DNA of 53,863 nt. Origin: Acidimicrobiia bacterium. GTDB lineage: Bacteria > Actinomycetota > Acidimicrobiia > Spongiisociales > UBA5794. Under the pieces are notes generated by a model. The model saw only the letters and a program-made list of their open reading frames with translations. It did no database searches and was not told the origin of the DNA. The stretch covers positions 1-53,863 of the forward strand of contig JASJEG010000004.1 in NCBI GenBank assembly GCA_030064765.1. The letters are read 5' to 3'. A program made the position numbers and the translations under genes. Of this stretch, positions 7,274 through 40,411 are shown piece after piece; the first letter of the stretch is position 1, and every line of letters starts with the position of its first letter.

Positions 7274-8281
7274 CTAGGAAGAGATCAGAGAAATGGCTCC
7301 ATCGGCGGCTTCGGGCGAGTGATCTTCCGGCGTCTCGGTGATGTCGATCAGTCGGGGTGAAGCCATCTGCTCAACCCGGCCTTCAGTGTCGACCACGCGG
7401 CCGACCATTCGCCAATGGCCCGCCGGTCGTCGCTTCCCGCGATACATCAGATCGTCGGCAGTATGGATCATCTCCTCGACTGATCCCGGCGGGACCCGGA
7501 AGGTAACAAATCCGGCCGTTGCCGTCACTACGGGAATGTCGGTCCTCGCCGCCAGGCTATGCCTGATTCGGTTCAGGACGGCAGTCGCCTCATGTGGTCC
7601 GGTATTGGGGAGAATGAGCGTGAACTCGTCCCCGCCGACACGGCCGGCGATGTCGGTCGATCGAATCGATTTACTGATTACTTCGCCGAATGCGCTCAGG
7701 ACGTTGTCGCCGACGATGTGTCCATGAACGTCGTTGACCCCCTTGAAATCGTCGAGGTCGAGGAATGCGATCGTCATCGGCAACCTGCTTGTCGCCGCGC
7801 CGACCCGGGCATGTTCCCCAGTCCGCTGCAGCGCTCCGGTGTTGAGCAAGCCGGTTAGCGAGTCACGACGAGTTGCCTCGTCCAACTCCAGCACAAGCCG
7901 CCGGAAAGTCTTGGTGAGGGCGATTCCGATTCCCAGCAGAATCGATCCCGACATGGCGGCCAGGATCACCCGGGATCCTTGTGTTGCGTTTGCGGCCTCG
8001 AGCTGTCGGATGGCCCACAGCCCCATGATCGCCACCCCGATGAACGATGCCTCGTAGGTGCGGCCCGCCCAGGTCACCGCCGCCACGATGACGTAGGCCC
8101 CGAGCAGAACGTGGGCGTCTGATCCGATGATCGTGTCGACCACCAGCAATCCGGCGGCGGCAACGATGGCGGAAACCAGCACCACCCAGCGGGGAGGGCA
8201 GATCCCGCGCGCCAGCACACCCCATGCTGGGACTTCGCTGTACGTCGGCGCCTGGCTGAGCCGTTCCCGGTGTAGAACCAT
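7274..8281 (-). CDS. Membrane-anchored diguanylate cyclase (GGDEF)
   Basis: N-terminal hydrophobic segments; DSLTGLLNTGALQR...IAGRVGGDEFTLILP. Confidence 0.92.
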   Translation of the reverse strand: MVLHRERLSQAPTYSEVPAWGVLARGICPPRWVVLVSAIVAAAGLLVVDTIIGSDAHVLLGAYVIVAAVTWAGRTYEASFIGVAIMGLWAIRQLEAANATQGSRVILAAMSGSILLGIGIALTKTFRRLVLELDEATRRDSLTGLLNTGALQRTGEHARVGAATSRLPMTIAFLDLDDFKGVNDVHGHIVGDNVLSAFGEVISKSIRSTDIAGRVGGDEFTLILPNTGPHEATAVLNRIRHSLAARTDIPVVTATAGFVTFRVPPGSVEEMIHTADDLMYRGKRRPAGHWRMVGRVVDTEGRVEQMASPRLIDITETPEDHSPEAADGAISLISS

Positions 8282-8288
8282 GGCAACG

Positions 8289-8315
8289 TAATCGGAAGGT
8301 CAACTGCCGGCTTTA
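8289..8315 (-). promoter_or_regulatory. Candidate sigma28-like promoter of the diguanylate cyclase (variant -10)
   Basis: Minus strand TAAA-N15-TCCGATTA-N7-ATG; -10 begins T instead of G. Confidence 0.5.
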
Positions 8316-8380
8316 GCCTGTTTCTACCAGGCGGAGGTAGGCAGGACAGGGCGAATAGGCGGAGAAGAGGCCGGCCTGGC

Positions 8381-9118
8381 TCAGAACACAACCGGTACCG
8401 ACAGCGCCATTGGCTTGTCGAGCCGACCGGCGAGCACGAGGCAGAACTCGATTGCGTCCATCTCGATCTTCACGCCATCGTCGCCGACCCGGTAACCGCC
8501 GCCCGCCGGGCCGTCGAGCAGCAACTGGAACGGCTCACCGTGGCGTTCGGCCCACTCGACAACAACATCCTCGACGATGCGCCCATCATGCCCGCGGGTC
8601 AGCACCAGCTCGCGGCCGGTTGCCGCAGCTATGTCGATGCGGTGCATCCACTGGTCCCGGGTGTAGACCCGATCGACGAGGTGGCCCATGGTCATCCGAT
8701 AGCCGACGCCGGTTGGAATCGGGATCCGCCGTGCGAGTGCTGGTGTTCGCTGGCGTCCCTTGATGGCTGCCGGGGCGACCTCTTGCAGCTGAGCGATGAG
8801 CTCGGAGGGGGAGTGGTGTCTCCGGGCGTCCACCTGTACCGCATTGATGCCGTCGATGTCCTCGACGTCCTCCCGGATAGCTATCCGCTTCCCCTTGACG
8901 AGCTGGCGAACACTCTCGGCAACCGATGCGTTGGCCTCGGCGGCTCCCAGTAGGTGGGCCACCATGAGGTGTACGTCCCAGTCGTCGCAGACCGTCTGCG
9001 TCGCCCAATCGTCAGGGGTCAGCTCGCCGAGCAGCTCGAACAGGCGTTGGTACTCGGTGTTCGCCAGCCCGGCCATCTCGGTGCGGTCTATTGGTTCAAT
9101 CGTTGTTGCGTCCTTCAC
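8381..9118 (-). CDS. Maleylpyruvate isomerase family mycothiol-dependent enzyme
   Basis: LANTEYQRLFELLGELTPDDWATQTVCDDWDVHLMVAHLLGAAEAN; GTG start with GTGA overlap to tetR-like gene. Confidence 0.85.
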   Translation of the reverse strand: MKDATTIEPIDRTEMAGLANTEYQRLFELLGELTPDDWATQTVCDDWDVHLMVAHLLGAAEANASVAESVRQLVKGKRIAIREDVEDIDGINAVQVDARRHHSPSELIAQLQEVAPAAIKGRQRTPALARRIPIPTGVGYRMTMGHLVDRVYTRDQWMHRIDIAAATGRELVLTRGHDGRIVEDVVVEWAERHGEPFQLLLDGPAGGGYRVGDDGVKIEMDAIEFCLVLAGRLDKPMALSVPVVF

Positions 9119-9687
9119 GTGCTCTCCCTCCTCAGGAACATGTCTACTGCGGTTTCGATGAGGCGCAGCCAACGGTCGCCTCCGTGGTCATTGGCCACCT
9201 GCTGGCTCGCCAGGCCGCTGGTGAGCGCGGTCCACAGATCAAGCGACGGGCCATCACTGATGCCGACCCGACCCATGACCGAGCGCATATGCTCGTAGTT
9301 GTCGACTGCGGACGAATAGGCATCGGGCGACGGTTCCCATCCGGGTACCGCGTGCTGAAAGAGCAGCTGGAACCGCGCCGGGTCCTCGTCGCAGAACGCA
9401 ACAAAGTGACGGGCCGTCTCGATCAGCATGCTTCGTCGGTCGAGATCGGTCGGGAGGGATTCAAAGCGCACGCTCAGCTCGTGATTGCCCGCGATGAACA
9501 TGGCGTCGTGAATGGCGTCGTTGCCGGCGAAGTAGCCGTATAGCGAGCTCGGCGCCATCTCGAGGTGTGCCGCTATCTCCCTGACTCCCACCCGGCCCCA
9601 GCCCTGGGTCCTAGCGATCTCCCAGGCTGTTTCGATGATCGTGGCGCGAGTAGCCGCCCGACGGGATTCGACTCTTGCGGTGGCCAA
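9115..9687 (-). CDS. TetR/AcrR-family transcriptional regulator
   Basis: ATIIETAWEIARTQGWGRVGVREIAAHLEMAPSSLYGYFAGNDAI; TTG start preceded by AAGGAG. Confidence 0.85.
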   Translation of the reverse strand: MATARVESRRAATRATIIETAWEIARTQGWGRVGVREIAAHLEMAPSSLYGYFAGNDAIHDAMFIAGNHELSVRFESLPTDLDRRSMLIETARHFVAFCDEDPARFQLLFQHAVPGWEPSPDAYSSAVDNYEHMRSVMGRVGISDGPSLDLWTALTSGLASQQVANDHGGDRWLRLIETAVDMFLRREST

Positions 9688-9707
9688 GGCGCTCTCCTTA
9701 CTAACGG

Positions 9708-9733
9708 TGTTCGGTTTTCCGAACAGTGTTCGG
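9708..9733. promoter_or_regulatory. Three alternating half-sites, probable TetR operator
   Basis: GTTCGG-TTTT-CCGAAC-AGT-GTTCGG in the divergent tetR/SDR intergenic region. Confidence 0.6.
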
Positions 9734-9834
9734 TATTCTGGCTGTCCCGGGTCCAAATGTCAAGACTTCTGCAAACGAGCGGGCCCAATCGTGGGCCGGT
9801 AGCCTGGCGGGAGCGACTGCACGGAGGGTGTGCA

Positions 9835-10596
9835 ATGGATATCGCAGGAGCGTCGGCAATCGTCACAGGAGGCGCATCAGGTCTGGGGGCGGCCACAGCG
9901 CGCCGGCTGTCTGCGGAAGGCGTGCGCCTGGTTCTCGTCGACCTCCAGGATGATCTCGGAGGCGTGGTCGCCGATCAGGTAGGCGGTACGTACGTGCACG
10001 CCGATGTGACCGACGTCGAGCAGGTGCAAGCCGCAGTGGACGCAGCGGCGCAGGCGGGTCCGCTGCGAATTCTGGTCAACTGCGCCGGGATCGCCCCGCC
10101 GGCGCGGACCCTGAATCGGGACGGAGAGCCGCATCCAATGTCACTCTTCGAGAAGGTTATCGCAGTCAACCTCGTCGGTTCCTTCAACTGCATTCGCCTG
10201 GCTGCGGCGGCGATGGCGGCAACCGAGCCCCTCGAAGACGGTGAGCGCGGTGCGATTGTCAATACGGCGTCGGTGGCGGCGTTTGATGGACAGATCGGTC
10301 AGGCGGCGTATTCGGCCTCGAAGGGTGGCATCGTCGGCATGACCTTGCCGATTGCCCGTGACCTCTCTGCAATCGGTGTCCGGGTCAACACGATTGCGCC
10401 GGGAATCATGGACACGCCACTACTGGCCGGGTTGCCGGAGCCGGCGAAGGAGTCGTTGGGCCAGCAGGTGCTCTATCCGAAGCGCCTCGGCACAACCGAC
10501 GAGTACGCCGAGACCGCCCAATTCCTGCTGACCCACTCATACATGAACGGGGAAACCGTCCGGATGGATGGCGGCATAAGGATGGCGCCGAAGTAG
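9835..10596 (+). CDS. SDR-family oxidoreductase (3-hydroxyacyl-CoA dehydrogenase type-2-like)
   Basis: IVTGGASGLGAATARRL, NCAGIAPPARTLNRDG, YSASKGGIVGMTLPIARDL; internal ATG start. Confidence 0.88.
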   Translation: MDIAGASAIVTGGASGLGAATARRLSAEGVRLVLVDLQDDLGGVVADQVGGTYVHADVTDVEQVQAAVDAAAQAGPLRILVNCAGIAPPARTLNRDGEPHPMSLFEKVIAVNLVGSFNCIRLAAAAMAATEPLEDGERGAIVNTASVAAFDGQIGQAAYSASKGGIVGMTLPIARDLSAIGVRVNTIAPGIMDTPLLAGLPEPAKESLGQQVLYPKRLGTTDEYAETAQFLLTHSYMNGETVRMDGGIRMAPK

Positions 10597-10711
10597 CCCA
10601 CAGCGTCGATCGTGACCGATTTCGGGCATACGGCCGACTGACATCATCTAGAGTTCCGCGGATGTTGTCCAAGATGCTCAATCCGTGGCGTTGCCTGCCG
10701 ACTGGTAGTGC

Positions 10712-11500
10712 ATGAAGCCGGTCATTGCCGTTTCGGCTCAGCAGGCGGTCTCGACGACCAAGCACTACGGGGATCAGCGGATCACCAGTCTGTACGACCT
10801 GTACGTCACCGCCATTCAGCAAGCGGGGGGGCTACCGGTCGTGCTCGCGCATGGGGAACCGGTTGACGTACCGCGCCTGCTCGATCGGTTCGACGCCCTT
10901 GTGCTGCCCGGTGGCGGCGACATTGACCCCACTTCGTACGGGGACGTTCCGCAGACCGACACCCTGTACGGCATGCGACCGGAATCCGACCTGTTCGAGG
11001 TTGCGCTAGTACGCGAGGCGGCGAAGCGCCAGATGCCCATCCTCGGGATCTGCCGCGGTCTGCAGGTCATCAACGTTGCCTTCGGGGGGACTCTCCATCA
11101 GGATCTGCCGGAGCATCCGCAAGATCTCGCCGGACGCGCATTTGCCCCGCACTATCGCACCGACGTTGCCCCCGGTTCCCGGCTGCACGAGGTGGTGGGT
11201 CGGAACGAGATTGTCGTCAACTCGCTACACCATCAGGGAGTCAAGGATGTCGGCGAAGGGTTGCAGGTGGTCGCAACCGCCAACGACGGCGTTGTCGAGT
11301 CGCTCGAGCCCGAGAACCCGGCGTGGGACATGCTGGCCGTGCAATGGCATCCCGAGTGTCTGCACAAGGATCACGCCACCGCCCTGTTCAATTGGCTCGT
11401 TGCCGCTGCTGCGATGAAGGCGACCCAACACGATCTGCACTCGCTCACCGAGTCGGTTCGTGTCATTCCGGTCAAGAGGAAGACCGCAGCAGCTTCGTAG
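10712..11500 (+). CDS. Gamma-glutamyl-gamma-aminobutyrate hydrolase-family class I amidotransferase
   Basis: LPGGGDIDPTSYG, PILGICRGLQVINVAFGGTLHQDL, VQWHPE. Confidence 0.92.
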   Translation: MKPVIAVSAQQAVSTTKHYGDQRITSLYDLYVTAIQQAGGLPVVLAHGEPVDVPRLLDRFDALVLPGGGDIDPTSYGDVPQTDTLYGMRPESDLFEVALVREAAKRQMPILGICRGLQVINVAFGGTLHQDLPEHPQDLAGRAFAPHYRTDVAPGSRLHEVVGRNEIVVNSLHHQGVKDVGEGLQVVATANDGVVESLEPENPAWDMLAVQWHPECLHKDHATALFNWLVAAAAMKATQHDLHSLTESVRVIPVKRKTAAAS

Positions 11501-11539
11501 ATCGAGCCGCATTCGATTCAGAACGCTAACTTTGCTCCT

Positions 11540-12907
11540 ATGAGCACTCTTCTGATCAAGCATGCGCAAGTAGTAGCGACGATGGATGGGGAGCGGCGGG
11601 AGATCCCGGATGGTGCGATGCTCGTTGAGGAGGGATTCATCTCCCGGGTTGGTCCGAGCGAGGACCTTCCCGACACAGCCGACGAGGTGCTCGATCTCTC
11701 TGGGCACCTGGTCTTGCCCGGGTTCATCAACACCCACCATCACTTCTATCAGACTCTGACCCGTGCCGTTCCCGGTGCCCAGGACGCCGGGCTCTTCGAC
11801 TGGCTGCGCACCCTGTATCCGATATGGGCCCGCATGACTGCCGAGCATGTCTGGGTTTCGACCCAGGTGGCCCTTGCCGAGTTGGCTCTCTCCGGGTGCA
11901 CGACCGCCTTCGATCACCTCTATCTGTTCCCCAACGATTCCCGGCTCGACGACGAGATCGAAGCGGCTCGGGAGATAGGTCTGCGCCTCCACGCCTCCCG
12001 CGGCTCGATGTCGTTGGGGGAGAGCGACGGAGGCCTCCCGCCCGACTCAGTTGTGGAAACCGATTCGGCGATCCTCGCAGATACCCAGCGGCTGATTGAG
12101 ACGTATCACGATGGTCGGCCGGGTTCGATGACTCAGGTCGTAGTTGCCCCCTGTTCGCCCTTCAGCGTCACCACCGAAATCATGCGGGACAGCGCCGCGC
12201 TGGCACGCCAGTTCGGAGTCACGATGCATACCCATCTCGCCGAAACGATGGATGAGGAGGAGTTCTGCATCTCGACGTACGGTCGTCGACCTATCGAGCT
12301 CATGGAAGACCTCGATTGGATGGGCGACGACGTCTGGTTTGCCCACAGCGTCTTCATCAACGACTCCGAGATCCAGCGCATGTCCGGAACTCGGACCGGA
12401 GTTGCCCACTGTCCATCCTCGAACATGCGCCTCGCCTCCGGGATTGCCCCGGTGCGCAAGTACCTCGAAGCCGGAGTGCCGACCGGCTTGGGGGTCGACG
12501 GATCGGCAAGCAACGATGGCAGCCACCTCCTCGGCGAAGCGAGGATGGCGATGTTGCTCGCCCGCCTCGATGCGGCGCCCAATCAGAGCGGCGGCGGGCT
12601 CATGACCGCCCGGACCGCAATCGAGCTCGCCACCCGGGGCGGTGCCGAGGTGCTGCGGCGCTCCGATCTCGGTTCGCTCGAGCCGGGCAAGGCGGCCGAC
12701 TTCATCGCCATTGACCTGAGCCGCCTCGAGTACGCAGGAGCACTGCACGATCCGGTTGCGGCGGCCATGCTGGCCGCTCCGGTCAACGTTGATTTCAACT
12801 ATGTCGGTGGTCGTCCGGTTGTCGTGAACGGCGAGCTCGTCACCATGGAGCTCGAGCCGCTGATCGAGCGGCACAATCAGCTGGCTGCGACGCTGCTCGA
12901 CAGCTGA
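11540..12907 (+). CDS. Amidohydrolase, 8-oxoguanine deaminase-like
   Basis: LPGFINTHHHFYQTLTRAVPGAQDAGLFDWLRTLYPIW, MHTHLAETMDEEEFC, GVDGSASNDGSHLL. Confidence 0.85.
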   Translation: MSTLLIKHAQVVATMDGERREIPDGAMLVEEGFISRVGPSEDLPDTADEVLDLSGHLVLPGFINTHHHFYQTLTRAVPGAQDAGLFDWLRTLYPIWARMTAEHVWVSTQVALAELALSGCTTAFDHLYLFPNDSRLDDEIEAAREIGLRLHASRGSMSLGESDGGLPPDSVVETDSAILADTQRLIETYHDGRPGSMTQVVVAPCSPFSVTTEIMRDSAALARQFGVTMHTHLAETMDEEEFCISTYGRRPIELMEDLDWMGDDVWFAHSVFINDSEIQRMSGTRTGVAHCPSSNMRLASGIAPVRKYLEAGVPTGLGVDGSASNDGSHLLGEARMAMLLARLDAAPNQSGGGLMTARTAIELATRGGAEVLRRSDLGSLEPGKAADFIAIDLSRLEYAGALHDPVAAAMLAAPVNVDFNYVGGRPVVVNGELVTMELEPLIERHNQLAATLLDS

Positions 12908-12953
12908 GTAGCCCGATGCCCACCGTTTACAATCAGTAAAGAGGAGGTGCCGA

Positions 12954-13760
12954 GTGGAGATCACCCGTCCGACAAGTCTCAGTGAAGCCCTCGATGCACG
13001 AGCGCAGGATCCCGGTGCCGATTTGCTCGCCGGTGGTACGGATCTGATGGTCGAGGTCAATTTTGGTCTCGCCAAGCCCGAGCACGTTATCGCTCTCCGG
13101 CGCATTGATGAGATAGGCGAAGTCGAGGACCGGCGCATCGGCGCCGGCGTTACCTGGGCCCGACTGGAGGAGAGCGACCATCGCGCGCTCGCCCAGCTGT
13201 CGCGAACGGTCGGCTCACCGCAGATCAGGGCTGCAGGCACCATTGGCGGGAACATCGGCACGGCGAGCCCCGCCGGAGACGGGTTGCCCTGGCTGGCTGC
13301 CGTCGATGCCGAGATCGAAGTGGCCTCGCAGGCACGCGGTACCCGTCGCCTGCGCTGGGATGAGTTCTTCACCGGCGTGAAGCGAAATGCGCTCGAACCG
13401 GACGAGGTGATTGTGGCCGCAGTCCTGCCTGAGCGTGTTCCTTCCAACCAGCACTTCGCCAAGATCGGGCAACGCAGTGCGATGGTCATCTCTACAGTCT
13501 CCGCAGTCGTTGTTCGCGACGATGACGGTTCGGTTCGTGTCGCTCTCGGATCGGTGGCTCCGACCCCAATCCGAGCGCTTGCAGCGGAGCAGTTGATCAA
13601 CGAGAACCCGCAACCCACCGACGAGGTGCTGGCGGAGTTTGCGCGGACGGTGTCTGCCGAAGTCACTCCTATTACCGATCACCGCTCTACCGAGTCCTAT
13701 CGACGGCATGCCGCCGGTGTTCTAGCGCGGAGGCTTCTCGAAAGGTGCCTTGCATCATGA
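12954..13760 (+). CDS. FAD-binding (medium) subunit of xanthine dehydrogenase-family enzyme
   Basis: LLAGGTDLMVEVNFGLAKPEHVIALRRI, RAAGTIGGNIGTASPAGD. Confidence 0.9.
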   Translation: MEITRPTSLSEALDARAQDPGADLLAGGTDLMVEVNFGLAKPEHVIALRRIDEIGEVEDRRIGAGVTWARLEESDHRALAQLSRTVGSPQIRAAGTIGGNIGTASPAGDGLPWLAAVDAEIEVASQARGTRRLRWDEFFTGVKRNALEPDEVIVAAVLPERVPSNQHFAKIGQRSAMVISTVSAVVVRDDDGSVRVALGSVAPTPIRALAAEQLINENPQPTDEVLAEFARTVSAEVTPITDHRSTESYRRHAAGVLARRLLERCLAS

Positions 13761-14218
13761 TTGTGAGCTTCACTGTCAACGGAGAAGAGCGGATCGCCAA
13801 CGTCTCCGGCCCCGAAAGCCTGCTCACGGTGCTGCGTGAGGAACTGGGCCTACCCGGCTCCAAGAACGCGTGTGAGCAGGGGGAATGCGGGTCGTGCGCC
13901 GTGGTTCTCGACGGGGCCGTTGTCACCTCGTGTCTCGTGATGGCCGCCGACTGCGAGGGCTCCGAGGTCACAACTGTCGAAGGCATCGGCAGCGATCGGG
14001 AGCTTCATGCGGTTCAGCAGGCGCTGCTCGATCACGGCGCGGTGCAATGCGGCTTCTGCACCCCCGGGTTTGTCGTAACGGCAGCCCATTTGTTCGAAGA
14101 GAACCCACACCCGTCCTCTGATGAGATCAAGGAAGCGCTCTCCGGCAACATCTGCCGCTGTACCGGGTACGGCGCCATCGCCAGAGCGCTGGAGGAACTA
14201 GCGGAGGGGACAGCATGA
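13757..14218 (+). CDS. (2Fe-2S)-binding small subunit of xanthine dehydrogenase-family enzyme
   Basis: CEQGECGSCAVVLDG...QCGFCTPG...NICRCTGYGAI; ATGA overlaps on both sides. Confidence 0.95.
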   Translation: MIVSFTVNGEERIANVSGPESLLTVLREELGLPGSKNACEQGECGSCAVVLDGAVVTSCLVMAADCEGSEVTTVEGIGSDRELHAVQQALLDHGAVQCGFCTPGFVVTAAHLFEENPHPSSDEIKEALSGNICRCTGYGAIARALEELAEGTA

Positions 14219-16440
14219 CCACTTCTCCCATCACCAGGAAGAGGGTCCGTGGCGGTGTCGGCGATTCGCCGCTCCGTATCGACGGCATCCCCAAGGTCAC
14301 GGGCAACTTCGCCTACGCCTCCGACCTGTACGCAGACGGGATGCTCTGGGCCGCGACGCTACGCAGCCCACATGCCCGAGCCCGGATCACGAAGTTGGAC
14401 ACCGCCCCCGCCTATGCGGTTGGTGGTGTCGTGCTGGTGCTCACTCAGGAGGACGTCGTCGGTCGCCCCGGTTTTGGCATGCATGTTCCCGATCAACCGG
14501 TATTTGCCGACGGCGAGTGCAACTACTGGGGCGAGCCCATCGCCGTGGTTGTTGCGTCCGATCTTCCCACCGCCAAGCTGGGTGTTGAGGCGATCGATGT
14601 CGAGTTCGAGGAACTCGAACCGCTTACCGACATGGAGGAAGCCGATGCCCGCGACTCGCAGACACGGCGGATGAAGATCCGTCGGGGTGATCGTGATGTT
14701 GAAGGCGCGGTTGTTGTCGAGGGGTACTACGAAGTGGGGCAGCAGGATCAGGCGCCGCTCGGCAATGAGGCCGGTCTTGCCATACCCGATGGTGATGGCG
14801 GTGTTGACCTGTATGCGGTCTCGCAATGGGTGCACAGCGACCATTGGCAGATCTACCCGTGTCTCGACATCGAACCGGAACAGGTCCGTTGCCATCCGGT
14901 GGGGATGGGCGGCGCCTTTGGTGCGCGCGAGGACGTGAGCATGCACATCCACCTGTGCATGGCCGCGTTGCGCACCGGTCGTCCCATCAAGATGATGTAC
15001 GACCGCGCTGAGTCGTTCGTCGGTCATGTGCATCGCCATCCGGCCCGTATGTGGTACCGGCATGAAGCCGATAACCAAGGCAGGCTGGTCAAGGTCGAGG
15101 CCCGTCTGATCCTCGATGGCGGCGCCTACGAGTCCTCGTCAAATGCGGTCATCGCCAATGCTGCGTACTTTGCGGTCGGCCCGTACCGTTGCGACAACGT
15201 TTTCGTCGATGCCGTAGCCGCCAAGACCAACAACCCGCCCGCCGGGGCGATGCGTGGATTTGGTGGTGTGCAGACTGCGTTCGCACACGAATCTCAGATG
15301 GACAAGCTGGCCGCCGAGCTAGGGCTTGACCCGTTGGAGATCAGGCTGCGCAATGCACTTGGCCGCGGCGATGCCCTGAATACCTCCGGTCAACTGATTG
15401 AGGGCTCGCTACCGACTGCCGAACTCATCAACGAGCTCGACGCCATGCCATTGGCGGAGCCACTCGATTCGGATGATGCTCGTCACCTTCCGGGCGGGAC
15501 CGGGCTGACCACCGATCCCCGACACGTCCGGCGCGGCGTTGGCTACGGAGTCACCCTCAAGAACCTGGCGTTCTCCGAAGCCTTCGATGACTACAGCGAC
15601 GTGCGGATCGTGCTCAGCCCGATCGGTGTCGAGGTGTACACCGCCGCAGCCGAGGTCGGTCAGGGAATGGTGACCATCATTCAGCAGCTCGCCCGTGAGG
15701 TGCTGCAGATCGAGCAAGTCGCAGTGGTGTGGGCCGACACCGGTGTTATCGGGTCCGCAGGTTCCACTTCGGCGTCACGGCAGACCCAGATGACCGGGGG
15801 CGCCACCCACCAGTGCGCCATCGAACTGCGGGAACAGATTCTCGCCGAGTTCGGTGGTGACGACCTCTCCGGCGAGGGCGTGTGGAAGGACGGTGAGCTG
15901 ATAGTCACCCTCCACGAGGTCTGCGAATCGGGCCCGCGCGAGCACGAGATCCGCTACCGACATCCCGAGACCTTCGCCACCGACGAGAACGGTCAGGGAG
16001 ATGCTCATCCCGCCTGGGCGGTGGCCGCCCACCGGGCCGTAGTTGATGTGGATCCCGAGCTCGGGCTGGTGCGGGTGGTGCAGATCGACGCGGTGCACGA
16101 TGTCGGCCGGCTGCTGAATCCCGTCGCCGCGCTCGGGCAGATCGAGGGTGGGACCCTGCAGGGCGTGGGTCTGGCGACGCTCGAGGAGTTGGTTCTCGAT
16201 AGGGGTGTCATCAAGAACGCCAACTTCACCGACTACCTGCTGCCTACCTTCCTCGATGCTCCGCACGTGGAGGTGAAGTGGGTCGAAGAACCGGAGCGCT
16301 GGGGGCCGCTGGGCGCCAAGGGAATCGGGGAACCACCCACCATCTCAGCGGGACCTGCAGTTGCCGCCGCGATCAGAAATGCCATCGGGGCCGATCTGAT
16401 CCGGGTGCCGATCCTGCCGCAGCACATCGTGGGCGCATAG
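14215..16440 (+). CDS. Molybdopterin-binding large subunit of xanthine dehydrogenase-family enzyme
   Basis: GMGGAFGAREDVSMHIH, PAGAMRGFGGVQ, EVGQGMVTIIQQLA, GPLGAKGIGEPPTI. Confidence 0.94.
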   Translation: MTTSPITRKRVRGGVGDSPLRIDGIPKVTGNFAYASDLYADGMLWAATLRSPHARARITKLDTAPAYAVGGVVLVLTQEDVVGRPGFGMHVPDQPVFADGECNYWGEPIAVVVASDLPTAKLGVEAIDVEFEELEPLTDMEEADARDSQTRRMKIRRGDRDVEGAVVVEGYYEVGQQDQAPLGNEAGLAIPDGDGGVDLYAVSQWVHSDHWQIYPCLDIEPEQVRCHPVGMGGAFGAREDVSMHIHLCMAALRTGRPIKMMYDRAESFVGHVHRHPARMWYRHEADNQGRLVKVEARLILDGGAYESSSNAVIANAAYFAVGPYRCDNVFVDAVAAKTNNPPAGAMRGFGGVQTAFAHESQMDKLAAELGLDPLEIRLRNALGRGDALNTSGQLIEGSLPTAELINELDAMPLAEPLDSDDARHLPGGTGLTTDPRHVRRGVGYGVTLKNLAFSEAFDDYSDVRIVLSPIGVEVYTAAAEVGQGMVTIIQQLAREVLQIEQVAVVWADTGVIGSAGSTSASRQTQMTGGATHQCAIELREQILAEFGGDDLSGEGVWKDGELIVTLHEVCESGPREHEIRYRHPETFATDENGQGDAHPAWAVAAHRAVVDVDPELGLVRVVQIDAVHDVGRLLNPVAALGQIEGGTLQGVGLATLEELVLDRGVIKNANFTDYLLPTFLDAPHVEVKWVEEPERWGPLGAKGIGEPPTISAGPAVAAAIRNAIGADLIRVPILPQHIVGA

Positions 16441-16446
16441 GCGAGG

Positions 16447-18189
16447 TCAGCCGGTCTGGGCGATCACGGCGTCGCCGGATTCGTTGCCGGCGCACGGAGG
16501 TTCACCCTGTTTCCGCTGTGCGGTCGGCGCATTGGGGAGACGGAGCCGGAAGTGGCTCCACTCTCCGTCATAGGCGTACTCGAGCTCGCCTCCCATGGCG
16601 CGAGCGAGGTTGCGCGATATGTAGAGCCCCAGGCCAACCGACTCGACGTTCGTGGTGGGCGCATGAGCGGACTCGTATGGCTCGAACACCGATCGTCGTT
16701 TCTGCACGGGGATGCCCATGCCATCATCGGCGACTGACACTTCGGTCCAACCCGCGCCCTCGGCGAAGTCGATCCGCACCTTTGACCCTCCGTACCGCTT
16801 GGCGTTGGTGAGCAGGTTGCGCAGGATCTGACGGACCCGTTGTGGGTCGGCCAGCGCGTGACCGGGGTCACCCCGGGTCGATGCCTCGATCCCCGTCGAT
16901 TCCATGACCTGTTCGACCAGGCAACGAAGGTCGACTTCCTGGCGGTGGACGGTAACGCTCCCGATGTCGCTGCGGGCCGCGACCAGGAGATCCTCGACGA
17001 TCCCGGTGAGCTCGTCGGTCTGTTCCACCAGCATGTCCATCAGACCTTCGCGCTCCACGGGGGTGAACTGGCTGAGCTTGTCGTGGAGCTCGTATGCCAA
17101 CCCGGATACCACCGTCAAGGGGGTGCGCAACTCGTGAGAGACCGATGCCAGGAACCGGTCCTTGTCCTCAGCCCGTCTGCGCAGCCGGTCCAGTCTCTTG
17201 CGCTCCCGCTGTCGCTCGATGAGTAGCCAGCCGGCCAGGACAACGAGGAAGACCACGGCTGCGGCGATCGCCGGAGTAACCCACCAAGCTGCCCCGGTCA
17301 GTTCGGCCAGCGCTTCTTCAGTTGGCGCAATCGCCAGCGACCAGGTTGTGCCCGGTAGTTCCAGTGGATAGAGACGGGTGTTGGGCCCGGTGACGTGAGC
17401 GACCTCGGCACCGGGTGGGATGGCCTCCCAGGAGACGTTGTCGAGGATCGTTCTGTCGAGCTCCGGCAGCACCAGTTGCTCGACCATCATCGCTACAACT
17501 AGGCCCCGGGGCCTCTCATCTGATGGAGCAACGGGGACAGATGCGAAGAACACGCGGTCGAGCGTGACGAAGGCAAGATCGAGGGTGGTGAAGCCGCTGA
17601 AAGTAGGTATGTCGACGTCGAGCGCCCGCGCAATGTCCGCTCGCCACGCTGGATCGAATCCGGCATCCAGGCCCGGTCCGATGTTGGCGATCTCCGGATC
17701 GTTGGCGATGGCGCTGCGGATCGTGCTGCCGAGAGCGAAGTATCGGACCGGGTAGAAGGCCTCCCTTCCGTCTCGCTCCACTGGCGCCGGCTCCGCTTGC
17801 TCGTCGATCCCGAACACGTAGTAGTCGTCGTCCAGCGACTGTTGTGTTGCAGCTGTGTGGGCGTCAAAATCGGCGGACTTCAGCTCGGTCAGATAGCCAA
17901 CGCCAACAGCGCTGGCGGTGCCATCGATACGGTCGACAAACGCCTCAAACTGAGTCTTGTCCGGGTTCGATTGCTCGACAAACGCGGCCACCGCTTCGAG
18001 GTCGGTAGTCACGCCACCCAGCGACTCCGTTACCACCTCGGTGACCAGCTCGGCCTGGCTGTCGGTCCACTCTGCAACGCGGTCGCTCCTGGAGTTGACT
18101 TCGAAGGCCGATGCAATGGCGAACGCCAGCAACACAACACAGATCAGGATGAGAACTGTGAGCGGACGTCGTCGCACCTGTGGCTTCAT
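16447..18189 (-). CDS. CHASE-domain sensor histidine kinase (paralogue 1)
   Basis: N-terminal TM, CHASE-like FEAFVDRIDGTASAVGVGYLTE, H-box FLASVSHELRTPLTVVSG, ATPase VGLGLYISRNLARAMGG. Confidence 0.9.
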   Translation of the reverse strand: MKPQVRRRPLTVLILICVVLLAFAIASAFEVNSRSDRVAEWTDSQAELVTEVVTESLGGVTTDLEAVAAFVEQSNPDKTQFEAFVDRIDGTASAVGVGYLTELKSADFDAHTAATQQSLDDDYYVFGIDEQAEPAPVERDGREAFYPVRYFALGSTIRSAIANDPEIANIGPGLDAGFDPAWRADIARALDVDIPTFSGFTTLDLAFVTLDRVFFASVPVAPSDERPRGLVVAMMVEQLVLPELDRTILDNVSWEAIPPGAEVAHVTGPNTRLYPLELPGTTWSLAIAPTEEALAELTGAAWWVTPAIAAAVVFLVVLAGWLLIERQRERKRLDRLRRRAEDKDRFLASVSHELRTPLTVVSGLAYELHDKLSQFTPVEREGLMDMLVEQTDELTGIVEDLLVAARSDIGSVTVHRQEVDLRCLVEQVMESTGIEASTRGDPGHALADPQRVRQILRNLLTNAKRYGGSKVRIDFAEGAGWTEVSVADDGMGIPVQKRRSVFEPYESAHAPTTNVESVGLGLYISRNLARAMGGELEYAYDGEWSHFRLRLPNAPTAQRKQGEPPCAGNESGDAVIAQTG

Positions 18190-18196
18190 TACTCAT

Positions 18197-18224
18197 GTGT
18201 CGGCACAAGAGGTACCGAGGTAAA
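18197..18224 (-). promoter_or_regulatory. Sigma28-like promoter of CHASE kinase 1
   Basis: Minus strand T-TTAC-N15-GCCGACAC-N7-ATG. Confidence 0.6.
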
Positions 18225-18256
18225 CCAACAAATGGATGACGGTGCGGCGTGAGGGT

Positions 18257-20020
18257 CTACTTGACGGCCACTGCAGGTGCCGCGCCCGATCCCCCGCGGG
18301 TTTGGCCAATGCTGACCCGATCACCGGTGGGTAGCGGCCTCAGCCGGAGGCGGAAGTGGCTCCACTCCCCGTCATATACGTATTCCAGATCTCCCCCCAT
18401 GGCCTGCGCCAGGTTGCGCGAGATGTACAGGCCGAGGCCAACTGAGCGCACGTCGCTACTCGGTCGATGTGCCGAGCGATAGGGGTCGAAGATCACATCG
18501 CGCATCTCTCTGGGCACACCATCTCCATTGTCGGACACGGTCACTTCGACCCAGTCTGTTCCCTCCGAGAAGCCGACCCGCACCTCTGGCCCGCCGTACC
18601 GCTTTGCATTGGTGAACAGGTTGCGCAGGATCTGCCGGACCCGCTGCGGATCTCCGTAGGCCGGAACGGGATCACCACGACGGCGCACGGTGAGGTCCGA
18701 TGTCTGGGCTGCATTGTCCACCTCGGCACCAACGTCGACCTCGCCGTAGTGAATGGCCACCTTGCCGATGTCGCTGCGGGCGGCGACCAGAAGGTCTTCA
18801 ACGATCGCGGCGAGCTCTTCGGTCTGGTCCATGAGCATCGTCATCAGTTCGACGCGCTCCTCGTCACCGAACGATTCGGGTTGGTCTGTGAGCTCGTGGG
18901 CGAGACCCGAAACAACCGTGAGCGGGGTGCGCAACTCGTGCGACACGGAAGCAAGGAAGCGGTCCTTGTCGTCTGCAATCTGGCGGAACTGGACCGCACG
19001 GTTGTGTTCGGTACGGCGGTCGATCAGGAGCCATACCGCCAGGATCGCAAGTCCCACGAGAGTCGCTGCGATCGATGCGATGGCCCACCACGGCAGTCCT
19101 TGCAGGTCCGAGAATGCTTCGTCGGTGGGGGCAACCGCAACGGACCAGGTGGAACCCGGCAGCGCCACCGGGAAGATGCCGGCATGCTCCGAGTCGACGA
19201 ATGCCGGTGTGTCGCCCTCGGCGATGATCTCCCACTCGACCTGCTGGAGAGCTGATGTGGTCAGCTCCGCCACGAGAAGCGGTTCGAGCATCATCGCCAT
19301 GACCATGCCTTGCTTGGATCCGTCATCATCTTCGACAGGTACCGAGACGAAGAAGACGCGGTCCAGGGCGAGGTCGCCAACTCGGAGCGATATGAACTGC
19401 GAGATCGATGGGCCATCACGGGCAATGGCGGAGGTGATATCTGAACGCCATCTCGGGTCGAAGCCGGCATCGAGACCTAGCACCAGCTCGCTCCCGATCG
19501 GTTCGTCTGGCACCGCTGCCCTGATCAGGTTTCCAACTGCAAAGGCCTGGACCGGGTAGAAGACATCGCGACTGGTCAGATCTGTGGGTGCGGCATCCAT
19601 GAAGAACAGGTTGTCATCTGAGCTCTCGTCATCTGGGAATCCCCAGATCTCGTACCAATCGCCGTGGACGGCCCTTTGTGAATCGACGAAGTCGTAGATC
19701 TCGCTTGCGGAGACCTCGGTCAAGTAGCCATACCCCACCGCGCTGTCGGTTCCCTCGATGCGATTGGTGAAGCTCTCGAACGTACCCGGGTCGGAGCCGA
19801 TCTCCTCAACGAACGCAGCTACCGCTTCGACGTCGGCGATGACGCCATCGACGGCCTCTTGCATCACCTGCTCGATCACAGCCGCCTGCTCAGCCGTCCA
19901 GTTGGTCACGGCGGTGCGCGTGGAGATAGATTCCACCGCCGCAGCGACCACAAAGGCAACCACGACGAGGAGAATCAAGCCCATCAGTAGGATCCTGCGC
20001 GACCCCTTCGGTGATTCCAT
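18257..20020 (-). CDS. CHASE-domain sensor histidine kinase (paralogue 2)
   Basis: FESFTNRIEGTDSAVGYGYLTEV; FLASVSHELRTPLTVVSGLAHEL; VGLGLYISRNLAQAMGG. Confidence 0.9.
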   Translation of the reverse strand: MESPKGSRRILLMGLILLVVVAFVVAAAVESISTRTAVTNWTAEQAAVIEQVMQEAVDGVIADVEAVAAFVEEIGSDPGTFESFTNRIEGTDSAVGYGYLTEVSASEIYDFVDSQRAVHGDWYEIWGFPDDESSDDNLFFMDAAPTDLTSRDVFYPVQAFAVGNLIRAAVPDEPIGSELVLGLDAGFDPRWRSDITSAIARDGPSISQFISLRVGDLALDRVFFVSVPVEDDDGSKQGMVMAMMLEPLLVAELTTSALQQVEWEIIAEGDTPAFVDSEHAGIFPVALPGSTWSVAVAPTDEAFSDLQGLPWWAIASIAATLVGLAILAVWLLIDRRTEHNRAVQFRQIADDKDRFLASVSHELRTPLTVVSGLAHELTDQPESFGDEERVELMTMLMDQTEELAAIVEDLLVAARSDIGKVAIHYGEVDVGAEVDNAAQTSDLTVRRRGDPVPAYGDPQRVRQILRNLFTNAKRYGGPEVRVGFSEGTDWVEVTVSDNGDGVPREMRDVIFDPYRSAHRPSSDVRSVGLGLYISRNLAQAMGGDLEYVYDGEWSHFRLRLRPLPTGDRVSIGQTRGGSGAAPAVAVK

Positions 20021-20027
20021 TACCTAA

Positions 20028-20054
20028 CTATCGGCAGCCCATTCGAGCGGTAAA
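20028..20054 (-). promoter_or_regulatory. Sigma28-like promoter of CHASE kinase 2
   Basis: Minus strand TTTA-N15-GCCGATAG-N7-ATG. Confidence 0.65.
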
Positions 20055-20067
20055 GGCTGGCTGCCGG

Positions 20068-21786
20068 TTAGCCGGGTATCGACGCAACCGGTCGCGGCGA
20101 GTCCTGCTGCTCGGTTCTCGAATCGACCGCCGGGAGGCGAAGCCGGAAGTGGCTCCATTGGTCGCGACGGGTGTAGTCGAGATCGCCGTTCATCGCCCGG
20201 GCGAGGGCGCGGGACACGTAGAGGCCCAAACCGACCGATCCCGTCCCGTTCCTCGAGGCGTGGGCCGACTCGTATGGTTCGAAGACCAACTCACGCTTCG
20301 CCGCCGGGATCCCCTCCCCGTTGTCCGAGACGATGGTCTCGACCCAGGGGCCTGCGACGCTGACTTCGACCCGGACCTCGTCTCCGCCGTAGCGGATTGC
20401 GTTGGTGAAGAGATTGCGCAGGATCTGTCGCACCCGTTGCGGGTCGGCAAGAGCGATGGCGGGATCGCCGCTGACTTTGGGCACGGCATCGACAACGCGA
20501 AGGGCTACCTCGAGCTCGGCCATCACATCGACAGGCTGGCTCGCCACTGTCACGCTGCTGATGTCGCTCCTCGCAGCAATAAGCAGGTCCTCGACTATTG
20601 CACTGAGCTCGTCGGTTTCGTCAACGATCATTGAATGCAGAGTTCCGATTTCGTCCGGTTCGAAGTCCAACGGTCGGTCCCGTATCTCATTTGCCAGGCC
20701 GGAGACCACAGTCAACGGTGTTCGTAGCTCATGAGAAACGGTGGCAAGGAACCGGTCCTTCTCCTCGGCCAGCGCTTTCAAGTTGACCGAGCGGTTCCGC
20801 TCGCGACGTCTATCGACGAACAGCCACAGTGACACTGCGGCGAGGGTCATGGCTACCGCCACCGCGAGCCCGGTGGTCCACGGTGGCCGCCCCTCCAGTT
20901 CGGCGAGCGCCTCGTCCGTCGGCGCCACTGCGAGTCGCCACGGCGCGTTGGGGACGTCCAGGTCGAAGAAGCTGACATTGGCGGACTGGATCCGTTCGGG
21001 CGCACCGCCAATGGGCACAACCTCCCATTGCACATCGTCGAGGATGCGAGTTTCGGCGTTAGCGAGTAGCAGCGGTTCCAGCATCACGGAGGCGACGACT
21101 CCTATCGGCTCGCCACCGTCTGGGCCGACCGGAACCGACGCAAAGAACAAGCGGTCAAATCTGAAGGAGGCGGCCTCGATCCCGAAGAAGGACGAGAGGT
21201 TGCGCCCATCGGCCTTGATCGCAGTAGTCACCAGAGCTCGCCAGGCAGGGTTGTAGCCGGCATCGAGTCCCAGTCCCAGTTCGGGGATCGATACATCGTC
21301 ACCCAGCAGGGGACGAATCAGGTCGCCGAATGCAAACAACTGGATCGGGTAGAACTCAGTACGTCCGGTGCGGTCGAGGGGCTCAGGGAAGGCGGTCTCC
21401 GGAGCGAGGCCGAGGAAGTCGTAGAACTCGCCAAGTGTTGCCCGCCGTTCCGCAATGTGAGCTTCGGCCTGGTCCGCTGGCACATAGTCGAGGTATCCGA
21501 TGCCGATCGAGTTTGACGTTCCCTCAATGTGATCGACGAAGCTCTGGAAGGATGCGGGGGAGGGGCTGCCGTAGGTTATGTACGCAGCCATTGCCTCGAG
21601 ATCGTCAAACGCGTCGTCGAGAAGATCCTGCACGACCGATTCCACGACTTCGGATCGTCCCTGAGTCCACGTAGCGACTTCGGCGCGGTAACTGGCAGCG
21701 TCTAGGAGCGCAGCAGCAACCCCCGAGCCCACCACGAGGATGACGAGCGCGAGTACGAAGAGACGCCGCTTCGCTGGATTGTCCAC
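20068..21786 (-). CDS. CHASE-domain sensor histidine kinase (paralogue 3)
   Basis: FQSFVDHIEGTSNSIGIGYLDYV; FLATVSHELRTPLTVVSGLANEI; VGLGLYVSRALARAMNG; GTG start. Confidence 0.9.
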   Translation of the reverse strand: MDNPAKRRLFVLALVILVVGSGVAAALLDAASYRAEVATWTQGRSEVVESVVQDLLDDAFDDLEAMAAYITYGSPSPASFQSFVDHIEGTSNSIGIGYLDYVPADQAEAHIAERRATLGEFYDFLGLAPETAFPEPLDRTGRTEFYPIQLFAFGDLIRPLLGDDVSIPELGLGLDAGYNPAWRALVTTAIKADGRNLSSFFGIEAASFRFDRLFFASVPVGPDGGEPIGVVASVMLEPLLLANAETRILDDVQWEVVPIGGAPERIQSANVSFFDLDVPNAPWRLAVAPTDEALAELEGRPPWTTGLAVAVAMTLAAVSLWLFVDRRRERNRSVNLKALAEEKDRFLATVSHELRTPLTVVSGLANEIRDRPLDFEPDEIGTLHSMIVDETDELSAIVEDLLIAARSDISSVTVASQPVDVMAELEVALRVVDAVPKVSGDPAIALADPQRVRQILRNLFTNAIRYGGDEVRVEVSVAGPWVETIVSDNGEGIPAAKRELVFEPYESAHASRNGTGSVGLGLYVSRALARAMNGDLDYTRRDQWSHFRLRLPAVDSRTEQQDSPRPVASIPG

Positions 21787-21793
21787 CCAGATA

Positions 21794-21820
21794 ATGTCGG
21801 CTCGAGGAGGTGCCCCTTAA
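21794..21820 (-). promoter_or_regulatory. Sigma28-like promoter of CHASE kinase 3
   Basis: Minus strand TTAA-N15-GCCGACAT-N7-GTG. Confidence 0.65.
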
Positions 21821-26710: not shown

Positions 26711-26737
26711 TTACCTCTGCCGCTTCTCTGCCGACAG
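26711..26737 (+). promoter_or_regulatory. Sigma28-like promoter upstream of flhB
   Basis: TTAC-N15-GCCGACAG. Confidence 0.6.
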
Positions 26738-31694: not shown

Positions 31695-31721
31695 TTATTC
31701 GCTACACATCCCTGCCGACAG
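31695..31721 (+). promoter_or_regulatory. Sigma28-like promoter of the 31759 FlgN-like gene
   Basis: TTAT-N15-GCCGACAG. Confidence 0.65.
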
Positions 31722-33920: not shown

Positions 33921-35288
33921 CTACCTACCCACAAGCCCGGTTCGGTTGATGAGCGTGTCGAGGCTCTCATCGACGGCGGTCATGACGCGAGCTGCGGCTT
34001 CGTATGCCCGCTGGTATGTGATGAGGTTGACCATCTCCTCATCGATCGAAACCCCGTGTGCCTGCATGCGTGCGCTCTCGGCGGCTGAGGTGAGGGCGGC
34101 CTGGCTGCGGGCACCGGAGATCGCGGAGGCGGTCATTTCGCCAACGAACGAGACGATGTTGCGCATCGCATCGTCGACGGTGAGGGTCCCGCCGTCTGCG
34201 ACCAGGCTGTCACGCAATGCCGAGAGGGCTTCGGCGTTCATCCCGTCGAACTCGGCCACGGGCGGCCCCGAGCCGGCAGCGGCGATCTCGGAATGGTGGC
34301 TCACTGCAACCACGAGCGAGGCCGCTTCGGCGCCGACCGTGTAGGACAGGAGGTCGCCTCCGGCTGAACCATCGGGGGCATAGCCGGTGGCGTGCTGGGC
34401 ATTGAGGGCATCGGCCAGTTCCCGGGCGAAGGTATTGAGAGCGGCCTCGAAGCCGGGCAGTTCGGTCTGCAGGTAACTCTGGAATCCGGAGAGCTCACCG
34501 CCGACGGTGACCGTTGCCCCCGAGGAGTGAGAAATCGCAAAGGTCGCCGGGTCGTAGGAGAGCGGGCTGACCATCGTGTCGGAAACCAGCGACAGGCCAT
34601 CGAGGCTGACCCGGGCTGCTCCGTTGTCCATGATCGTGACGGTTACGCCCGCGATGTTGGACAGGTCGTCCATTATCAGGTCCCGCTGATCCAGCAGATC
34701 GTTCGGCTCGCCGGGCAGCGAAGTGGCATCGAGGATCTGCCGATTGAGCTGAGCGATCTCGTGCAGCATGGCGTTGGTACGGTCGACGTACGCCTCGAGC
34801 GAGTTCGATGCACTCTGGCGTTCGATGTCCCACTTCTCGGCGACGCCGCGCACGTTGGTGGCCAGCTGGCCGAGCGTGGTGATCACGTGCTGCCGGGCCG
34901 AGGCGTTGGGAGGATCGAGTGTCAGTTCGTCAAAAGCGGTCCACAGGTTGGCCAAGCTCGAGGTGACCCCGGTGTCGGGCTCGCCCATCACCGACTCGGT
35001 CTTCGCCAGCAGGTCGGCAAGAACGTCGAGACGGCCCTGGGCGCTGGCGGAACGACGCACCTGGGTATCGAGACCATCGATCCGCACCCTGGAAATGTTG
35101 GCGATGTCGACCCCCTGGCCGACGGTGCCGAAGCGATGGTGGTAGGGGAGGCGGGTAGCGAGGTCGACCCGCTGCCGGCTGTATCCGGGGGTCGAGGCAT
35201 TGGCGACGTTGTGGGATGAGGTATTGATGCCGGCCTGAGCAGCGGTCAGCCCGCTGAATGCCGTGTAGAGGGAGATGAAGTCGCTCAT
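33921..35288 (-). CDS. flgK: Flagellar hook-associated protein FlgK
   Basis: LYTAFSGLTAAQAGINTSSHNVANASTPGYSRQRVDL; C-terminal INLITYQRAYEAAARVMTAVDESLDTLIN-like end. Confidence 0.96.
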   Translation of the reverse strand: MSDFISLYTAFSGLTAAQAGINTSSHNVANASTPGYSRQRVDLATRLPYHHRFGTVGQGVDIANISRVRIDGLDTQVRRSASAQGRLDVLADLLAKTESVMGEPDTGVTSSLANLWTAFDELTLDPPNASARQHVITTLGQLATNVRGVAEKWDIERQSASNSLEAYVDRTNAMLHEIAQLNRQILDATSLPGEPNDLLDQRDLIMDDLSNIAGVTVTIMDNGAARVSLDGLSLVSDTMVSPLSYDPATFAISHSSGATVTVGGELSGFQSYLQTELPGFEAALNTFARELADALNAQHATGYAPDGSAGGDLLSYTVGAEAASLVVAVSHHSEIAAAGSGPPVAEFDGMNAEALSALRDSLVADGGTLTVDDAMRNIVSFVGEMTASAISGARSQAALTSAAESARMQAHGVSIDEEMVNLITYQRAYEAAARVMTAVDESLDTLINRTGLVGR

Positions 35289-35788
35289 CAGATGATCCGA
35301 TTCACTCGTAGCGGCTGATCGGGTGTTCGGGTCGCCCGTCCGGCGGCGTCATAGATGTCGCCTCCGGCAAACCCGAGTGTCCCTTGGATACCGTCGAGGG
35401 CAACGGTTGCCAGGCGGCGGTTCTCCTTGGTGAGCACCTCGATCTCGTTGACCAGGCCCATGAATACCGCCTGGTGGTCTTCGAATGTGGGTCGCAGATG
35501 GTCCGGGGCGTTGTCGACGAGGAATCGCAGCCCGACCGACGCGGGGGGAACATTCCATTCCTGCGCTACGGCGGCGACGACTTCGCTTCGTTGATCCTCG
35601 GCTCTGCGGATCTCGGCCATGACTGCGTCGACCTCAGCGATGGCCGGGCCGACAAAGCGGCGATCATCGGCAATCAGCACGAGATTGGCCGACACGAGCT
35701 TGAACAGCAGGTACTCGAGCAGTCTGCGTTCGTACCAGAGCGTGTCGGCTAGCTGGCTCATAGGTGTAGATCCGGTTGCGGTAACCAT
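35288..35788 (-). CDS. FlgN-like flagellar chaperone
   Basis: LADTLWYERRLLEYLLFKLVSANLVLIADD; immediately upstream of and overlapping flgK. Confidence 0.7.
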   Translation of the reverse strand: MVTATGSTPMSQLADTLWYERRLLEYLLFKLVSANLVLIADDRRFVGPAIAEVDAVMAEIRRAEDQRSEVVAAVAQEWNVPPASVGLRFLVDNAPDHLRPTFEDHQAVFMGLVNEIEVLTKENRRLATVALDGIQGTLGFAGGDIYDAAGRATRTPDQPLRVNRII

Positions 35789-35796
35789 TGGGTGTT

Positions 35797-35823
35797 CAGT
35801 CGGCCCGAGCACCGCTCGATTAA
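35797..35823 (-). promoter_or_regulatory. Sigma28-like promoter of the flgN-flgK-flgL-fliW-csrA run
   Basis: Minus strand TTAA-N15-GCCGACTG. Confidence 0.7.
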
Positions 35824-38081: not shown

Positions 38082-38108
38082 TTAAGCACAGAGCGCAACG
38101 GCCGACAT
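38082..38108 (+). promoter_or_regulatory. Sigma28-like promoter of the FlbD-like gene
   Basis: TTAA-N15-GCCGACAT. Confidence 0.6.
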
Positions 38109-39437: not shown

Positions 39438-40343
39438 CTATCCGTGCAGTATCAAGGCCAGATCGGGGTCGTCGTCGGCCGCGTCGAGCCGGCTTCGCCA
39501 GTTGCTGTCTGCCGAGAGCTGCGCCACATAGGCGGCACGAGCCCGTTTGCCGGCAGCGTCGTCGCTGACATCGGGGGCGCCTTCGTATAGCGTCCCGAAC
39601 CATGCCCGCAGCGACGTGAGCGCCTCCGACCGAATCTGCGAAACCCTGGCCTGGGTAACGCCGAGGTCCTTGGCGATGTCCTGGAGCATTTCGCCGTTGA
39701 AGTAGTACCGCTCAATGACCTCGGCGTGGGTGGCGGGTAGACCGACGACTGCGGTCCGCAGTGTGCCGAGCATCTCGCGCTGCTCGAGAGCAGCTTCCGG
39801 TTGAACGGAGGTGTCCTGATCAACGATCGTGTCACGTAGCGACACGCTGTCGTCGGGACGCTGGTGATCCAGGTACAGAAGCATGGAGGCAGCCGACTGA
39901 GCCTGGGTCTTGTCGAGTTCTTCTACTGTCACGCCAAGTGCCTTGGCGAGAGTCTCCCGATCCGGCTCTCGCCCCGTCGAATCGCGCAGATCCGAGCTCG
40001 TCTCTTCCATCTCCCGATAGCGCCGCCGCACTGAGCGAGATGCCCAGTCCCGGGTGCGAGTCGAGTCGATGATGGCGCCACGAATCCGAATTGCTGCATA
40101 GCGTTCGAACGGGATACCGGAATCGGGGTTGAATCGTCTGGCCGCTTCCACCAATCCGAGCGCGCCGGCATTCCAGAGCTCTTCTCTGTCTACGTGGCGG
40201 GGATAGCGAGCGGAGACTTTGGCGACGGTGCGCCCTACCAGGTCGAGATGATCACGAACCAATTGGTTCGTCTCATGCTCCATGTCTCTCTTACCCATTT
40301 GTACTGGCCTCCATGGATTGCCCCACCCGGACAATCCGTGCAT
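39438..40343 (-). CDS. fliA: Flagellar sigma factor FliA (sigma28/WhiG family)
   Basis: LWNAGALGLVEAARRFNPDSGIPFERYAAIRIRGAIIDSTRTRDWASRSVRR; LQDIAKDLGVTQARVSQIRSEAL; start 40343 or 40298. Confidence 0.95.
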   Translation of the reverse strand: MHGLSGWGNPWRPVQMGKRDMEHETNQLVRDHLDLVGRTVAKVSARYPRHVDREELWNAGALGLVEAARRFNPDSGIPFERYAAIRIRGAIIDSTRTRDWASRSVRRRYREMEETSSDLRDSTGREPDRETLAKALGVTVEELDKTQAQSAASMLLYLDHQRPDDSVSLRDTIVDQDTSVQPEAALEQREMLGTLRTAVVGLPATHAEVIERYYFNGEMLQDIAKDLGVTQARVSQIRSEALTSLRAWFGTLYEGAPDVSDDAAGKRARAAYVAQLSADSNWRSRLDAADDDPDLALILHG

Positions 40344-40411
40344 TAGGGAGAGATCGGGATCTGGAGAACTAGCCTTGATGACCATTCTTCAAATAGTCAC
40401 TCTCTGTGGCC

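Follow-up and report, generated by a model that had tools for sequence, protein, structure and literature searches.

Four sensory genes of an uncultured, flagellated member of the Acidimicrobiia, one diguanylate cyclase and three sensor kinases, carry a flagellar-type -10 box that ends exactly 7 nt upstream of the start codon. They are probably members of the FliA (sigma-28) regulon with leaderless or nearly leaderless mRNAs, and the regulon would then be split into two translation-initiation classes. We propose that FliA RNA polymerase binds a clade-specific pair of boxes, about T[TA]AtgCC, N11, GCCGA[CT]A[GT]. With only 7 nt between the end of the -10 octamer and the start codon, transcription would begin at that codon or 1-2 nt before it. 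On the resulting mRNAs, without a Shine-Dalgarno (SD) sequence, ribosomes would initiate directly at the start codon at the 5' end, as on other actinobacterial leaderless mRNAs. For most flagellar structural genes the same sigma factor would make leadered mRNAs, about half of them with an SD-like sequence, and sensor kinases would be over-represented in the leaderless class.

Four sensory genes and their predicted promoters

The window, that is, the whole stretch of 53,863 nucleotides that was analysed, is contig C210 of a flagellated Acidimicrobiia MAG (3.16 Mb, 242 contigs, 78% complete). It carries a partial flagellar cluster with flhB, flhA, flgN, flgL, flgK, flbD, fliA and flagellin, together with a FlgE-type hook gene that was judged by sequence, not by a domain scan. 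A search of the window against Rfam gave no match. The near-identical contig JASJDZ010000016.1 belongs to another Acidimicrobiia MAG. Genome G003 has a near-identical copy of the window contig, and in G000 a second fliA (90% identical), a flagellin and an flhB are also found elsewhere in the genome (the contigs concerned are G003:C42, G000:C135 and G000:C12). The duplicate contig and the second fliA set possibly reflect mis-binning or a mixture of strains.

The first-pass annotation had quoted four -10/N7/start strings, and each of them is present once, on the minus strand, where it had been placed: TCCGATTA-CGTTGCC-ATG at 8296-8279 (cyclase), GCCGACAC-ATGAGTA-ATG at 18204-18187 (kinase 1), GCCGATAG-TTAGGTA-ATG at 20035-20018 (kinase 2) and GCCGACAT-TATCTGG-GTG at 21801-21784 (kinase 3). 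The strings open ORFs of 335, 580, 587 and 572 aa, respectively, which encode GGDEF or HisKA/HATPase domains. Upstream of each -10 box, at a distance of 10-11 nt, lies a T/A-rich -35 element (TAAAGCCG, TTACCTCG, TTACCGCT and TTAAGGGG). Each of the genes starts with ATG or GTG, and the 15 bases before the start hold the -10 box and no SD sequence. Within the window, the arrangement TWA-N15..17-[GT]CCGA[CT]-N9-RTG was found only at these four genes (5 raw matches, one counted twice), and 100 dinucleotide shuffles of the window yielded 0.15 matches on average and never more than 3. Up to 40 nt upstream of the 35 listed window gene starts, [GT]CCGA[CT] was at -15 in five cases, at -16 in one and elsewhere in only two.

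The promoters of kinase 1 and kinase 3 (N11) and of kinase 2 (N10), with GCCGATAA-like -10 boxes, received scores of 16.0-19.3 with a PWM that was trained partly on the very sites scored. The cyclase promoter is a weak match, its score being marginal and within the range of likely chance matches. Kinases 1-3 are tandem paralogues (46-47% identity) and thus count as about one event. The gaps of 47 nt between kinases 3 and 2 and of 67 nt between kinases 2 and 1 each hold a predicted promoter, which fits separate transcripts. Between the kinases, a consensus scan detected neither a sigma-70-like promoter nor a terminator on the minus strand. Given the short gaps and the lack of a visible terminator, read-through may carry transcription from kinase 3 on into kinases 2 and 1. 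On the plus strand, a Peptidase_C26 / class I glutamine amidotransferase gene (10678-11500) is preceded by GCCGACTG-N7-ATG with a weak -35 element, TCAATCCG; it is possibly a fifth leaderless FliA gene, or a chance match.

How long the leader would be can be estimated from two known promoters. The transcript of E. coli aer, which shares the -10 box GCCGACAT with kinase 3, starts 6 bp past the octamer (PMC2859248), and Streptomyces coelicolor whiH, documented as leaderless and sigma-WhiG-dependent, reads GCCGACAA-AGGATGC-GTG (PMC3160421 Table 1). From this geometry we infer a leader of 0-2 nt. The start site previously proposed, at the start codon or 1 nt before it, agrees with this near-leaderless geometry but was drawn too narrowly, as the aer geometry allows 0-2 nt. 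Purine frequencies 6 and 7 nt past the box picked out no single start site.

Table 1. Genes and predicted FliA-type promoters in the window.
Feature	Position	Strand	Evidence
Diguanylate cyclase gene (GGDEF), ATG start	7274..8281	-	PF00990 E=2.2e-30
Predicted promoter TAAAGCCG-N11-TCCGATTA, 7 nt before cyclase ATG	8289..8315	-	sequence; PWM score 12.1
Sensor kinase 1: HisKA, HATPase, CHASE-like N-terminal region by homology	16447..18189	-	domain matches; N-terminal alignment, M1 invariant
Predicted promoter TTACCTCG-N11-GCCGACAC, 7 nt before kinase 1 ATG	18197..18223	-	sequence; PWM
Sensor kinase 2: weak CHASE, HisKA, HATPase	18257..20020	-	domain matches
Predicted promoter TTACCGCT-N10-GCCGATAG, 7 nt before kinase 2 ATG	20028..20053	-	sequence; PWM
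Sensor kinase 3: HisKA, HATPase, GTG start	20068..21786	-	domain matches
Predicted promoter TTAAGGGG-N11-GCCGACAT, 7 nt before kinase 3 GTG	21794..21820	-	sequence; PWM
Predicted flhB promoter TTACCTCT-N11-GCCGACAG, 66 nt to TTG at 26804	26711..26737	+	PWM
Predicted second flgN promoter, 37 nt to ATG at 31759	31695..31721	+	PWM
flgN, first gene of flgN-flgK-flgL, ATG 8 nt after -10 box	35288..35788	-	PF05130 E=3.8e-9
Predicted promoter TTAATCGA-N11-GCCGACTG of flgN-flgK-flgL	35797..35823	-	PWM score 16.9
Predicted flbD promoter TTAAGCAC-N11-GCCGACAT, start at 38160 after AAAGGAG	38082..38108	+	PWM
FliA sigma factor gene	39438..40385	-	TIGR02479 E=7.8e-55
Predicted flagellin promoter TTATGCCG-N11-GCCGATAG, 70-nt gap to GTG at 40509	40412..40438	+	PWM 22.2; flagellin PF00669

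Spacing to the start codon and the genes that share it

Sites in related genomes were picked with promoter sequence as the only criterion, and each was then assigned the next start of the best-coding ORF. The first ATG or GTG at a distance of at least 3 nt was taken, which favours short spacings generally, not 7 nt specifically. The -10/N7/start rule first read from the window recurs in these genomes: 12 of the 80 unique sites before a coding ORF are exactly 7 nt from the start codon, against a background of 0.85 per spacing at 9-70 nt (Poisson p 1.4e-10, the genomes being MAGs and related sites not fully independent). The site on G021:C178, which belongs to these twelve, is probably spurious. 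One further site stands at 6 nt, two at 8 nt and two at 5 nt, which brings the 6-8 nt class to 15. In the four window genes and at the N7 sites, the -10 element has the distance of 6-7 nt from the start codon that is expected of leaderless genes. At 60 of the 80 sites the leader is 15 nt or longer, mostly about 15-110 nt, with an SD-like sequence in half of them (30/60). The N7 pattern including the start codon occurs at 0.48 per Mb in flagellated genomes vs 0.13 per Mb in the others, a 3.6-fold difference, where two of the 28 matches in flagellated genomes stem from one contig that was counted for both G000 and G003.

Histidine kinases account for 7 of the 15 promoter-chosen sites at 6-8 nt and for 5 of the 60 leadered ones (p=0.0015), and the genes on G000:C90 (cut by the contig end) and G013:C13 (cut in the enrichment analysis) are likely additional kinases. 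The flgN-flgK-flgL operon also has a short spacing, N8 in the window (Table 1) and, in two other genera, N8 in G017 and N7 in G007, as do TadE and TadG genes and a PKD protein gene, so that the class is sensor-enriched, not sensor-only. The first-pass annotation had seen a distinct leaderless class of FliA-controlled signalling genes set apart from leadered structural genes. The recurrence of the N7 class and its enrichment in kinases bear this out, but the class has to admit one structural operon and pilus genes, and while most flagellar structural genes do have leaders, of 37-115 nt, flgN-flgK-flgL does not conform. Besides flagellin, flhB, the second flgN and flbD (Table 1), the leadered members of the regulon include genes for an HDOD response regulator and for a Flp-type pilin.

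Two further groups of genes were seen behind such promoters. In three genera (L156 G011:C26, L176 G023:C147, L152 G020:C88), a FliA-like N7 promoter precedes the gene of a small protein of about 65 aa with a conserved DPYRRC...C.HDL motif, and the one member scanned had no match in Pfam. Flp pilin-like and TadE/TadG pilus genes stand behind the flagellar-type motif (L230, L223, L196, L151, L158), which suggests that pili and flagella may be under joint control.

The spacing could be real and still reflect only a general leaderless habit of the Acidimicrobiia, in which any promoter at a start codon is tolerated and no sensory class exists. TANNNT boxes in the same genomes peak exactly at -12 before start codons (18/195 genes), so that leaderless translation is probably already routine there. 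Judged from box positions, leaderlessness itself is not special to FliA in these genomes, sigma-A leaderless genes being common and in the same register, and non-sensory genes are also found within the N7 set. However, the kinase enrichment of the 6-8 nt class and the retention of N7 across genera in several families speak against a mere general habit, and we consider this explanation possible but rather unlikely. Sigma-A leaderless genes are likely in the window too, with TANNNT exactly at -12 at the starts of 4449-5975, 48002-48517 and 51934-53715.

Which sigma factor reads the boxes

The E. coli-type consensus TAAA-N14..16-CCGAT was tried and rejected: it gave 12 matches in the host genome vs 10 in the reversed control. 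As it showed no excess, it does not suit this clade, and flagellin and kinase promoters served to relearn the boxes. The flagellin promoters of the window and its relatives read TTATGCCG-N11-GCCGATAG or TTATGTCG-N11-GCCGACAG, and the same type of box precedes the kinases. TWA-N16-GCCGACAG had 92 matches in the 17 genomes with flagellin (37 in the reversed control) and 13 in 30 control genomes (44 in the reversed control). The contrast is strong (Fisher p 9e-10), with a per-genome frequency about 12-fold higher in flagellated genomes, although the absence of flagellin from a MAG can stem from incompleteness. Of the controls, 26 had neither flagellin nor a close FliA, and the other four (G038, G045, G052, G058) had a FliA-like sigma factor but lacked flagellin. 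The sites thus co-occur with the flagellar system. A WhiG-like sigma factor is present in nearly all of the 60 relatives, and the motif excess, which is confined to flagellated genomes, does not track it; the motif therefore follows the flagellar system and hence, we infer, FliA. An N7 search across the class (395 genomes) returned 32 matches, of which 15 came from the 50 genomes of the host family. Matches in other orders were near background, which indicates that the exact motif is clade-bound.

It is improbable that the promoters serve a WhiG-like sigma factor instead of FliA. The host genome does encode several FliA/WhiG-family sigma factors, a WhiG-like one on contig C7 among them. WhiG reads nearly the same boxes (PMC8325347), and the Rubrobacter WhiG regulon includes pilus genes, as the motif regulon does here. 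But the contrast between flagellated and control genomes led us to reject a WhiG origin, and the flagellin, flhB and flgN promoters have the same boxes as the sensory genes.

Homologues, sensing and known systems

Fourteen kinase and cyclase genes, selected by protein similarity and not by motif, were aligned on the start codon. The information content was 0.67 bits per position in the -35 box and 0.81 in the -10 box, but only 0.19-0.25 in the flank, the spacer and the N7 stretch. The box is at N7 in 12 of the 14 genes, two of which have degraded boxes (G003:C16, GCCAACAG, and G023b). It is at N6 in the other two, G005:C232 and the cyclase homologue of G005 (65% identical, TCCGATTA-N6-ATG). 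N7 is kept in the pairs G000:C88 and G023:C90 of a 435-aa kinase, G000:C213 and G003:C43 of a 538/534-aa kinase, and G013:C13 and G030:C30 of a GAF-PAS kinase. N7 is common to unrelated kinase families and kept across genera by homologues. In G001 and G002 the kinase homologues, which are more diverged (37% identity), no longer have the arrangement, and the homologue of the non-flagellated G015 is without it. Loss of the spacing at orthologous loci, which the first-pass annotation had named as evidence against its own proposal, thus holds for the diverged homologues but not for the closer ones.

The start codons could be misassigned, such that the transcript starts near the N7 codon and translation begins downstream on a short leader, and several genes do have an in-frame ATG, GTG or TTG 12-60 nt downstream. 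We consider this very improbable, since Met-1 is invariant in ten homologues and protein similarity reaches the N7 codon (for example MTHLARMRRS, MTHLARMRRS and MAHLARMRRS in three G023 paralogues with differing upstream DNA). It is hardly credible that one accidental arrangement was copied by tandem duplication, with the cyclase a coincidence: the paralogy of the kinases and the weak cyclase boxes would fit, but at least six unrelated N7 gene families among independently chosen sites, and four window sites vs a shuffled mean of 0.15, already contradict it.

What these genes might sense for can be viewed against the chemotaxis genes of the clade. A search for MCPs found none in 59 of 60 relatives. 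The exception, G005, has four MCP chemoreceptors (L127-L130), on contigs that are possibly contamination. A CheW-domain ORF is found in most genomes, flagellated or not, and so is not motility-specific. Members of the CHASE-kinase family are present in 9 of the 17 flagellated genomes and in none of the 43 others (p 1.6e-6, or 6.7e-5 when two weaker homologues are counted as present in the latter). That CHASE kinases stand in for chemoreceptors is offered as a hypothesis only. Rather doubtful is a wider scheme in which FliA, in flagellated Acidimicrobiia without chemoreceptors, makes leaderless sensor kinases and a cyclase that are translated apart from the leadered structural genes, the leader split being a regulatory means of timing or tuning sensing relative to flagellar assembly.

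Leaderless genes are a known kind; what is new is the regulon scale. Beyond housekeeping promoters and isolated cases like whiH, leaderless expression would take in a conserved portion of a flagellar sigma regulon that is enriched in sensors. The FliA reading makes a sharp prediction, that under one sigma factor 5' ends fall at the start codon for one gene set and leaders precede another. It would also provide a sequence rule for locating FliA-controlled sensors in uncultured actinobacteria, and it hints at what may do the sensing in flagellated Acidimicrobiia without a detected chemoreceptor. A literature search, in which subscription journals were thinly covered, found no report of a FliA leaderless class.

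Among known systems, the WhiG-RsiG regulon of Rubrobacter is an actinobacterial case in which a flagellar-type consensus controls pili and dgc/pde genes, but it is driven by WhiG, and the available text of PMC8325347 makes no mention of leaderlessness. In Actinobacteria, leaderless genes read by sigma-A have TANNNT about 12 nt upstream of the start codon, which likewise places the transcript start at that codon, whereas the sigma factor and the boxes are different and there is no tie to flagellation. The E. coli FliA class III regulon, with aer reading TAAAGATA-n11-GCCGACAT, has the same -10 octamer and N11 spacer (PMC2859248); here, in contrast, the -35 box is clade-specific (TTATGCC-like) and the start codon lies 0-2 nt from the predicted transcription start. 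S. coelicolor whiH has the same -10 family and spacing (GCCGACAA-N7-GTG; PMC3160421), but it is a single developmental regulator under WhiG, whereas many sensor genes would here be placed under the flagellar sigma factor.
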